The notes under the pieces are model-generated. The model was not told the DNA's origin and made no database searches. It worked only from the letters and a program-made list of their open reading frames with translations. From assembly GCF_900206265.1 (NCBI RefSeq), contig NZ_LT907782.1:1178001-1242000 (forward strand): a stretch of DNA of 64,000 bases, in the 5' to 3' direction. The first letter of the stretch is position 1. The number at the start of each line of letters is the position of its first letter. Source of the stretch: Nitrosomonas ureae (GTDB lineage: Bacteria > Pseudomonadota > Gammaproteobacteria > Burkholderiales > Nitrosomonadaceae). Of this stretch, positions 2,374 through 36,953 are shown piece by piece. The position numbers and the translations under genes were made by a program.

Positions 2374-3112
2374 CGCAGCTCACCACATGTTCCAGAATGT
2401 TTCTGACGCCCATCATCGCTTGCTCCAATACCGCATAAATCTCCTTCAACGGAATACCGTTCACGTTAGTGCCGCGTCCTGCGGCATAATTGGCAACCAC
2501 GGCAATGCTGGCATAATTTAAGTTCAGCTCCCTTGCCAGCGCGGCTTCCGGCATACCGGTCATGCCTACGATATCCGCGCCGTCGCGCTCCAGGCGGTTG
2601 ATCTCGGCGGCTGTTTCCAGCCGGGGACCTTGCGTCGCGGCATAAACTCCGCCATCGAAAACTGCTTCGTTGGCATTTTTTGCCGCTTGCAACAATAAGG
2701 CGCGGGTGTACTGACTATACGGCAATGTCATATCAATATGCGTGACGGGCTGTTCCTTGTCTTCAAAAAAAGTGAAACTGCGTCCATAAGTATAATCAAT
2801 AACCTGATCCGGAATCATGAGCCGCCCCGGTGCCAGATCAGCGCGAATACCGCCTACCGCCGCTACGGCGATGACATGCGAAGGCTGCAATGAATGCAGC
2901 GCCCATAAATTTGCGCGATAATTGATCGCATGCGGTGGAATCGTGTGTCCATGCCCATGCCGCGCCAGAAAAACGATATCTTCATTTTTCATCTTGCCAA
3001 AGGTCAATGGGCCGGAAGGCTCACCGTAAGGGGTACGTATGATTTCCCGGCGCGATATTTCCAGGCAGGATAATTGCGTCATTCCACTGCCGCCAATAAT
3101 TGCAAACATCAT
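2363..3112 (-). CDS. S-methyl-5'-thioinosine / methylthioadenosine phosphorylase
   Basis: 249 residues of the PNP/MTAP phosphorylase family. Motifs include the N-terminal IIGGSGM phosphate-binding loop, [19 protein letters not shown], and [15 protein letters not shown], then [20 protein letters not shown] near the purine site. The enzyme phosphorolyses methylthio-nucleosides from polyamine metabolism, releasing a base that neighbouring hpt could salvage. The family includes both MTA- and MTI-specific enzymes; the short bacterial form favours methylthioinosine, but specificity is not settled from sequence alone. Confidence 0.85.
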
Positions 3113-3128
3113 TCTCCCAAACTTGGAT

Positions 3129-3674
3129 TCAATCTTTTACTGCATAAACGGCGGGTAAATTCCGCCACACCCCGTGTATATCCATGCCGAACCCAAAAAC
3201 GTAGCGGTCCGGAACGATCAGCCCAACAAAATCAGCCTGAAGCGGCTTCGGCTTGCTCGTTTCTTTCTCGGTAAACACCGCGCTATAAAATGCTTTTGCG
3301 CCATTTTTCAGCACTTTATCACGAATGGCAGCAAGCGTAAGGCCTTGATCCAGAATATCATCCAGCACCAGCACAACCCGATCTTTGACACTCTCTCCAG
3401 GCTCAACCCGCCATTGAATTTCCCCACCCTGTAGCTGCTTGTTATAACGTGACAAATGCAAATAATCAAAATCCAGCGGAAAATGAAGTTGCGGTAACAA
3501 GTGCCCGGTAAATACCACCGCACCGCCCATCACGCATAAAACCAGTGGCTGTTGCTGCGATAACCGCTGCGTGATATCCCGTGCCATACGATGCACCGTT
3601 TGAGCAACCGTTCGCTCGGAATAAATCAGTTCCGCCGTTTCCAGGATTTGTTGCGCTTGTGAATAAGTCAGCAT
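3129..3674 (-). CDS. hpt: Hypoxanthine-guanine phosphoribosyltransferase
   Basis: About 181 residues. Joins PRPP to hypoxanthine or guanine. The PRPP-binding motif is VVLVLDDILDQGLTLAAI, and a Lys-rich base-contact region precedes the conserved DFVGLIVPDRYVFGFGMD. The frame extends upstream to 3731, but that part overlaps ligA. The ATG at 3674 (MLTYSQAQQILETAEL) lies just past the ligA stop and is the likely start. With the methylthio-nucleoside phosphorylase it forms a purine-salvage pair. Confidence 0.88.
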   Translation of the reverse strand: MLTYSQAQQILETAELIYSERTVAQTVHRMARDITQRLSQQQPLVLCVMGGAVVFTGHLLPQLHFPLDFDYLHLSRYNKQLQGGEIQWRVEPGESVKDRVVLVLDDILDQGLTLAAIRDKVLKNGAKAFYSAVFTEKETSKPKPLQADFVGLIVPDRYVFGFGMDIHGVWRNLPAVYAVKD

Positions 3675-36176: not shown

Positions 36177-36236
36177 TGGTGCCGAGAGGGGGAATCGAAC
36201 CCCCATGATGTTACCATCGCGGGATTTTGAGTCCCG
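36177..36236 (-). other. attL: 3' fragment of tRNA-Leu(CAA)
   Basis: The minus strand gives the anticodon arm with loop CTCAAAA (anticodon CAA), a long variable arm, a T-arm with a five-G/five-C stem and TTCGATT loop, the acceptor strand TCTCGGC and ACCA. The D-arm and 5' acceptor strand are absent; unrelated AT-rich DNA starts at 36237. This is the host-side relic left when a phage integrates in a tRNA gene. The intact tRNA should lie at the far right end of the prophage. Confidence 0.88.
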
Positions 36237-36378: not shown

Positions 36379-36407
36379 TTGAAACTGTCGCAAATACGAC
36401 ATACAAT
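36379..36407 (+). promoter_or_regulatory. Promoter with operator of the Aca2-like operon
   Basis: TTGAAA (36379-36384), 17-base spacer, TACAAT (36402-36407). Within the spacer a perfect inverted repeat TGTCG (36386-36390) / CGACA (36397-36401) occupies the space between the two elements, where a bound HTH dimer would block polymerase. Confidence 0.8.
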
Positions 36408-36415
36408 AATCACAT

Positions 36416-36436
36416 GCTTCGGAATTGGTTCGAAGC
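36416..36436 (+). promoter_or_regulatory. Leader stem-loop next to the ribosome binding site
   Basis: GCTTCG (36416-36421) and CGAAGC (36431-36436) flank 9 bases. It begins at about the predicted transcription start and ends six bases before the AAGGAGA ribosome site (36442-36448). In RNA it would form a 6-bp hairpin; as DNA it could be a second operator. Confidence 0.6.
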
Positions 36437-36454
36437 TACTCAAGGAGAGATAAA

Positions 36455-36607
36455 ATGAAACAATATTACATTACAGAAGAATCAAACAGTGTTTGCGTTT
36501 GGAATGGCAAAACTGGCGAATGCGTGTTTCAAATATCACGATACGTTGATGGTTATACAGGTTACGAACAAGCTGTAGCAAAATGTGCAGAACTAAATGC
36601 TCAATAA
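36455..36607 (+). CDS. 50-residue protein, anti-CRISPR candidate
   Basis: Starts MKQYYITEESNSVCVWNGKT after a strong ribosome site AAGGAGA at 7 bases. No recognised domain; the sequence suggests a small beta-hairpin followed by a helix (TGYEQAVAKCAELNAQ). It is the first gene of a two-gene operon whose second gene encodes an Aca2/YdiL-like HTH protein, overlapping by 11 bases. Position, size, orientation against the late genes and promoter layout match anti-CRISPR operons. Function is inferred only from this context. Confidence 0.7.
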   Translation: MKQYYITEESNSVCVWNGKTGECVFQISRYVDGYTGYEQAVAKCAELNAQ

Positions 36608-36953
36608 AGAACTAAAAGCACTCAGGAAGATATTCTTCTTGAGTGTGGCAGAAGCAGCCGAGCATATCGGTTATGTTTCTGCGCGCACTTGGCAACGCTG
36701 GGAGTTGGGAGAATATAAAATTCCCGATGACGTTGAGAAAAAAATGAACGATTTGGCAGAGCGCAGACTTCAAATGATCGAATCTTGCGACGATGTCATG
36801 AGCGAACATGATCCGGAGTCGACTGTCTTTGATTTCGATATGACGTTTGATGATTACAGATCGCGGCATCCTGAAGCAAGCGTTATTGATTGGAAGCTTT
36901 CTCAAAGTGTTGCAGCATACTTCCTAGGCGAAGGTATCGCCAGTCTGAAATAA
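36597..36953 (+). CDS. Aca2/YdiL-like HTH regulator
   Basis: 118 residues. N-terminal HTH (ELKALRKIFFLSVAEAAEHI, then YVSARTWQRWELGEYKIPDD) and a C-terminal part ending VIDWKLSQSVAAYFLGEGIA. This is the whole-length pattern of E. coli YdiL (DUF1870) and of Aca2, the anti-CRISPR-associated autorepressor first studied in Pectobacterium phage ZF40. Aca2 represses its operon through inverted repeats in the promoter and also binds an RNA stem-loop. Both kinds of repeat are found upstream here. The stop abuts the end of a convergent tail gene. Confidence 0.82.
   Translation: MLNKELKALRKIFFLSVAEAAEHIGYVSARTWQRWELGEYKIPDDVEKKMNDLAERRLQMIESCDDVMSEHDPESTVFDFDMTFDDYRSRHPEASVIDWKLSQSVAAYFLGEGIASLK

Follow-up and report, generated by a model that had tools for sequence, protein, structure and literature searches.

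A candidate anti-CRISPR operon under predicted Aca2 control at the edge of a tRNA-Leu prophage

Known acr-aca2 systems and the layout of the locus

The closest described systems are operons in which a small anti-CRISPR (acr) gene stands before aca2. The acrIF8-aca2 operon of Pectobacterium phage ZF40 (L014) shares several features with the locus studied here, namely the regulator family, an inverted repeat (IR1) in the promoter spacer, a small first gene and a leader hairpin, which has the loop AUGG and lies about as far behind the -10 element as in the window (the whole stretch of 64 kb of DNA that was analysed). The two operons differ in the first gene, AcrIF8 (92 aa as annotated) being unrelated in sequence to the 50-aa protein of the window, in the genes of the window overlapping by 11 nt, and in the effector of the host, which for the window is Cas9. 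The record and the PDB chain of AcrIF8 start at an ATG within the hairpin loop (hairpin at L014 1203-1226, annotated ATG at 1212), while the start taken in this analysis lies 11 codons later, behind a Shine-Dalgarno sequence. A TTG at 36425 of the window occupies the loop position equivalent to the ZF40 ATG and is in frame with the 50-aa gene; when the gene was read from this TTG, a sub-threshold Pfam match (E 0.09) was obtained and was taken as chance. The AcrIF9-aca2 locus (L003) has an IR1 that is 15/16 identical to the IR1 of the window, with the same placement relative to the -10 element, and a regulator 42% identical to that of the window, while its hairpin stem differs in sequence, its loop is AAGGG and its cargo is unrelated. 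Aca2 reportedly binds hairpins in leader RNA.

Aca2 orthologues also accompany inhibitors of Cas9. According to PMC6282205, an aca2 orthologue directly follows each of the acrIIC1Boe, acrIIC4 and acrIIC5 genes, and AcrIIC4 and AcrIIC5 were found by seeking ORFs of ~50-150 aa before aca2 in hosts with type II-C systems. The acrIIC4-aca2 and acrIIC5-aca2 loci resemble the window locus in having a small ORF before aca2, near genes associated with phages or mobile genetic elements, in a host with a type II-C Cas9. In the same paper, AcrIIC4 (88 aa) and AcrIIC5 (130 aa) inhibit NmeCas9 by experiment, whereas the 50-aa candidate of the window is proposed by sequence alone. The window locus fits the criteria that found AcrIIC4 and AcrIIC5 and has operator evidence in addition. 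PMC9410906 gives a known acr upstream of 35 of 1223 Aca2-like proteins of bacterial genomes, and a literature search on anti-CRISPRs and Nitrosomonas listed one paper, which deals with inoviruses (PMC6813254). The locus is a well-supported new candidate among acr-aca2 systems of the known kind and is not a new kind of system.

The source genome consisted of 3.06 Mb on one contig, and the window corresponds to C1:1178001-1242000. The original prediction, made from the letters of the window, had described a promoter, two inverted repeats, a 50-aa ORF and an overlapping 118-aa helix-turn-helix (HTH) gene, and all of these were found where it had placed them (Table 1). Its placing of the operon at a prophage edge was likewise borne out. 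The segment listed as attL core was 60/60 identical in blastn to the tRNA-Leu(CAA) at C1:1253996-1254082, and this intact tRNA gene lies 39.8 kb beyond the segment, directly behind an integrase gene; ARAGORN called it at L026 12997-13083, at the other prophage end, and a tRNA search over the 64-kb window found none. The 60-bp repeats are interpreted as the two att sites flanking a ~39.9-kb prophage in a tRNA-Leu gene. The operon starts ~140 bp inside attL, stands alone at the att site and has the opposite orientation to the neighbouring phage genes. Because the operon is situated inside the prophage att sites, the 50-aa gene and the HTH gene are both considered phage-borne.

Table 1. Features of the candidate operon and the adjoining putative att site, in window coordinates
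Feature	Position	Strand	Remarks
Putative attL core	36177..36236	.	60 bp, equal to the 3' part of the intact tRNA-Leu(CAA) at the opposite prophage end
Sigma-70-like promoter TTGAAA-17-TACAAT	36379..36407	+	10/12 consensus letters; -35 TTGAAA 36379-36384, 17-nt spacer, -10 TACAAT 36402-36407
IR1, predicted Aca2-type DNA operator TGTCGCAAATACGACA (TGTCG-caaata-CGACA)	36386..36401	.	In the promoter spacer
IR2, leader hairpin GCTTCGGAATTGGTTCGAAGC (GCTTCG-n9-CGAAGC)	36416..36436	+	Predicted 5' end of the mRNA
Shine-Dalgarno AAGGAG	36443..36448	+	6 nt upstream of the ATG
50-aa protein gene, candidate anti-CRISPR	36455..36607	+	Predicted beta-beta-beta-alpha fold
aca2, predicted 118-aa Aca2 autoregulator	36597..36953	+	Matches to Pfam, ZF40 Aca2 and PDB

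Taken alone, the promoter and the repeats are weak and not beyond chance. A promoter scan over 1.6 kb counted 4 promoter-like sites where 5.4 are expected, and when the 115-nt leader was shuffled 2000 times with dinucleotides preserved, 16% of the shuffles contained one repeat with arms of at least 6 plus another with arms of at least 5. The site is raised above chance by its match to an operator model from which the window was held out and by the codon evidence for the 50-aa ORF.

The regulator and its predicted two-part operator

The HTH protein matched the Pfam family Aca2_YdiL (PF08965) with an E of 1.5e-21 and 77.2 bits against a cut-off of 23.8, and the match covered residues 1-113 of 118 on model positions 1-113 of 118, including the HTH and the C-terminal dimerisation domain. 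YdiL belongs to the same family and has the same length; its locus lies between ydiK and ydiM and, unlike the window, has no Aca2-type operator. The assignment of the HTH protein to Aca2 in the original prediction held, the protein being far nearer to Aca2 than to YdiL: identity to ZF40 Aca2 was 49.6% over 99%, and a PDB search gave 1e-29 (106 bits) for Aca2 against 2e-12 (50 bits) for YdiL. Residue R30 of the recognition helix, which according to PMC8434428 is key to DNA binding by ZF40 Aca2, was invariant in 9/9 aligned sequences, ZF40 included.

Phylogenetic analysis of 21 sequences showed YdiL on the longest end branch (4.92), with L037 at 3.99. The nearest rows to the window Aca2 were P0008/P0009, P0011, P0010 and ZF40 Aca2, in a tree whose deep branches were mostly unresolved and whose rooting on YdiL was by choice and is therefore no proof in itself that YdiL lies outside. 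The 21 rows came from 25 listed, the near copies L004, L045, P0012 and P0014 having been dropped, and L005, L038, L039, L044, L046 and L047 were at no stage part of the tree. Two metagenomic proteins were 89% identical to the window Aca2, and the lineage is therefore present elsewhere; a search of 198 relatives with the Aca2 protein gave one further weak match (G006, E 8.2e-4). From its sequence, the locus is almost certainly an Aca2-controlled operon in a prophage.

Besides the window, 18 aca2-like loci were collected, and the leaders of nine were examined, with first-gene starts set by eye. Among the 18, L039, L044 and L046 match other loci in sequence, and L004, L005 (no upstream ORF found), L034, L045, L038 and L047 stood outside the nine. 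The nine leaders share a GTCGC/GTTCGC-like palindrome between the -35 and -10 elements and a hairpin ~8-10 nt behind the -10 element, with loops that by eye follow the pattern A-N1-2-GG (AUGG, AAUGG, AGUGG, ACGG or AAGGG). The leader hairpin of the window has a stem of 8 bp and the loop AUUGG, which by eye falls into the same loop class. In six training loci, 48/48 hairpin cells were paired and 4/8 pairs had changed on both sides, against 58.3% or less in slid controls, a figure that leans towards structure because the training loci were picked for a bulge-free hairpin alignment. L035, L037 and L040, whose hairpins do not align free of bulges, were kept out of the training set.

The operator model R1, a covariance model that combines the palindrome with the hairpin, was trained on those six aca2 loci, and the window was held out. 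In the 64-kb window, R1 matched positions 36385-36439 with 36.6 bits and an E of 9.4e-8, and the next best site scored 9.4 bits (27 lower). Both repeats to which the original prediction had given a role in Aca2 control thus agree with the operator seen at other aca2 loci. Across 85 genomes of the genus, this site was the sole match at E<=0.01, in a scan with stricter filters (66 candidates scored per genome listed). The model was also run on 14 other loci of the Aca2/YdiL family, namely L004, L005, L034, L035, L037, L038, L040, L045, L047 and L071-L075, and reached at least 25 bits in seven of these (L035, L037, L040, L072, L073, L074 and L075). Low scores were obtained for L034 (16.0 bits, palindrome part only) and L045 (14.2 bits), nothing above 11 bits was found in L004, L005, L038, L047 and the E. 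coli ydiL locus (L071), and nothing above 13.2 bits was found in the weak relatives L006-L010 or in L011, L025 and L026. A model of the palindrome plus an A-N1-2-GG hairpin provides a sharp and cheap finder of acr-aca2 operons.

Among the plasmid loci, L075 (Shewanella baltica) has an Aca2-type operator at 1649-1704, behind the aca2-like gene and before a 225-aa gene. Because the operator directly precedes it, the 225-aa gene may be a counter-defence gene.

AcrIF9 occupies the first position in L003 (E 1.9e-24), AcrIF8 does so in L014 and L041, and L036 has a relative of AcrIF8 there, giving a known Acr or relative in 4/9 of the aca2 loci with examined leaders. The first genes of L035, L037, L040, L042 and L043 had no match in Pfam or NCBIfam, and those of L042 and L043 had no Acr match in PDB; that of L040 resembles AcrIF9 on visual inspection. 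Further anti-CRISPR candidates are the unnamed small first genes that follow Aca2-type operators at L042 4755-4955, L043 4687-4953, L037 4720-4998 and L035 4496-4918, in contigs of viral or genomic origin.

The 50-aa protein and a relative beside a different regulator

The original prediction had left the small protein outside any family, and database comparison agreed with this: there was no family match in Pfam, NCBIfam or PADLOC, and the best PHROGs match had an E of 0.19. No similarity to named Acr families was found among the Acrs present in Pfam, NCBIfam, PADLOC, PHROGs and PDB. The predicted structure contained three strands and one helix (beta-beta-beta-alpha) with a pLDDT of 85.8; a structure search with this model gave no confident fold match, and a PDB profile search with the 50-aa protein returned mostly short WD-repeat look-alikes.

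A search of 5.8 billion proteins revealed nine relatives with 70-80% identity, of which one, on viral contig L011, had a readable context. Between the 50-aa ORF and the L011 relative, 28/45 base differences were at third positions, and 21 of the 50 codons differed synonymously and 10 non-synonymously; dN was 0.20, and dS was not computable and was read as saturated. On this codon pattern, the 50-aa ORF is evidently a real gene under purifying selection. Viral contigs searched with the single protein, A1 and A3 as queries contained no relative beyond L011, and no relatives of the 50-aa protein were found in genome contigs and plasmids or in the 198 relatives besides its own genome, while phages gave three weak partial matches with E 1 to 10. 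Six matches besides the window, obtained from 369 genomes of the class (E 4.7e-4 to 0.009), were set aside as probable chance; one of these (L028) was inspected, and its matched frame has a stop.

The L011 relative is located at the start of a 47-kb viral contig, between ninG and terminase genes. The small gene follows a TTGACA-TAGAAT promoter with two CGAAATAGTTT copies, one of which is a full palindrome in the spacer, and is itself followed by a 44-aa ORF and then by a 60-aa HTH gene (572-754). Another contig, L049, has an HTH gene (3001-3168) that is 80% identical to that of L011, behind a different small ORF, and its promoter region reads TTGACA...TGAAATAGTTTCA. The 60-aa HTH family was present in 23 viral contigs (L011 included), with variable small genes preceding it in the 19 that were read; among these 19 of the 23 loci, the promoter-type GAAATAGTTTC palindrome occurred in L011 and L049 only. 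The L011 HTH protein matched Pfam Phage_CI_repr just above the cut-off and had two weak matches in PDB. It presumably binds its palindrome, and, judged against Pfam and PDB, the 60-aa HTH protein with GAAATAGTTTC is a candidate for a new Aca-like regulator.

The expectation that relatives of the small protein would recur beside Aca2 was not borne out by the context that could be read. That context, available for one of the nine relatives, shows another HTH gene and another palindrome, and no relative next to Aca2 was found. The small protein thus adjoins HTH genes of two Pfam families, Aca2 in the window and the other HTH in L011. PMC9410906 states that AcrIF17 occurs with Aca5, Aca9 and Aca10 and that acr genes switch aca partners. 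One small gene under two regulators provides a second bait for guilt-by-association searches.

Host CRISPR-Cas and the proposed function of the operon

The host genome has a Cas9 locus at C1:2345842-2350790. The Cas9 has 1044 aa in an uninterrupted frame, with RuvC and HNH motifs by eye, and the genome also contains type II Cas1 and Cas2, an array of 6 repeats and 5 spacers, and an anti-repeat-like match of 23 nt that ends up 88 bp ahead of cas9. No Cas3 over the cut-off and no RAMP was found in this genome. Because of the gene content and PDB Cas9 relatives of about 1080 aa, the host system appears to be type II-C. Across the genus, Cas9 over the cut-off was found in 11/85 genomes and Cas3 over the cut-off in 35/85, and type I targets in sister hosts are therefore possible. 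The 5 host spacers, compared with the window and its flanks (which together cover the whole prophage) and with the other loci at up to 8 mismatches, matched their own array only. A comparison of the array with the whole genome showed no strong second spacer match (best 24/29); apart from weak hits it gave the anti-repeat-like match next to cas9. As no spacer matches the prophage, an inhibitor is not called for by self-targeting.

The locus is probably an acr-aca2 operon that belongs to a temperate phage and whose first gene encodes an anti-CRISPR, with type II-C Cas9 as the likeliest target. In favour of this, a small ORF shares its operon with an aca gene within a mobile element, an arrangement that is customary and not defining, and the host has a Cas9 system of its own as a possible target, a supporting feature that again does not define an anti-CRISPR. 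Against it stand the first genes with no Acr match in 5/9 aca2 loci, the low share of Aca2-like proteins with a known acr upstream (35 of 1223), the lack of similarity between the 50-aa protein and a known Acr or a confident fold in the databases compared, and the lack of a spacer targeting the prophage, the last also a supporting and not a defining criterion. The anti-CRISPR interpretation given in the original prediction has accordingly stood in part: Aca2 identity, the operator and the prophage edge favour it, and the small protein fits no family, as it had stated, while recurrence beside Aca2 and the spacers do not support it. Under the acr-aca2 reading, the promoter would be free on phage entry and a burst of the 50-aa protein would be made, which would block the CRISPR-Cas effector of the host, in this host most likely Cas9. 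Aca2 would then accumulate through coupled translation and bind IR1, stopping transcription, and would bind the leader hairpin, as is reported for ZF40 Aca2, so that translation of the remaining mRNA would also stop and the lysogen would be left with only a trickle of the 50-aa protein.

A wider form of this proposal is put forward tentatively. The 50-aa protein could found an anti-CRISPR family that would be among the smallest, with a sheet like a single WD40 blade and a helix cap, and could inhibit type II-C Cas9; it would be under at least two unrelated autoregulators, namely Aca2 with a DNA-plus-RNA operator, and the 60-aa HTH protein with the GAAATAGTTTC operator (L011, L049), which would make up an undescribed Aca family.

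Alternatively, and with rather low probability, the 50-aa protein would act against another defence system, for example restriction-modification, CBASS or Thoeris, under the same Aca2 control. Such regulators can have cargo of more than one kind, and the plasmid loci L072 and L073 carry unnamed small genes under an Aca2-type operator; the same absence of a targeting spacer and the same five unmatched first genes (compared with Pfam and NCBIfam, and with PDB for L042 and L043 only) would also suit this explanation. However, all four nameable first genes are anti-CRISPRs, and the CRISPR effector type of the host is one that earlier aca2-linked Acrs inhibit. The occurrence of one small protein with HTH genes of two Pfam families and two palindromes, in two differently organised phages, follows a pattern published for acr genes. 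Together with the isolated position of the gene at the att site, in the orientation opposite to its phage neighbours, this argues against a phage gene, early or lysogenic, that serves another use (host takeover, superinfection exclusion or timing) and is kept low by an HTH autorepressor. That explanation is improbable, even with the L011 relative situated at a place for phage regulatory genes and with relatives of the L011 HTH regulator following many unrelated small genes.

A toxin-antitoxin pair, with a small toxin first and an autoregulating HTH antitoxin second, would account for the gene order and the autoregulation, which are as in type II pairs, and PMC9410906 describes structure common to Aca2 and the antitoxin MqsA. 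The HTH protein reached the MqsA family model with an E of 0.0029 and 17.4 bits against a cut-off of 61.8. This explanation is very improbable: the regulator is nearest to Aca2 and not to an antitoxin, no toxin family matched over the cut-off, the L011 relative has a different partner, unlike a co-evolved pair, and control through a leader hairpin is the Aca2 pattern. If the acr-aca2 reading is true, a Cas9 inhibitor of 50 residues could readily be produced and fused to other proteins, and it would raise the question of how so small a protein stops so large an enzyme.

Two further Cas1 genes were observed in the host genome. A solo Cas1 of 506 aa at C1:2841253-2847045 (L019 11254-17046) had no other cas gene among the surrounding ORFs of at least 150 aa; its Cas1 domain covers residues 199-479, and its N-terminal part had a sub-threshold match to an IS66 accessory protein. 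A nearby protein of 774 aa shows polymerase-like motifs by eye and no more than a sub-threshold exonuclease match, and the locus may be a mobile Cas1 element, casposon-like or of another type. A similar solo Cas1 was present as a second, broken copy at C1:577176-577924 (L023 15177-15925) as two stretches, one with an internal stop, in a region containing genes that look transposase-like by eye.
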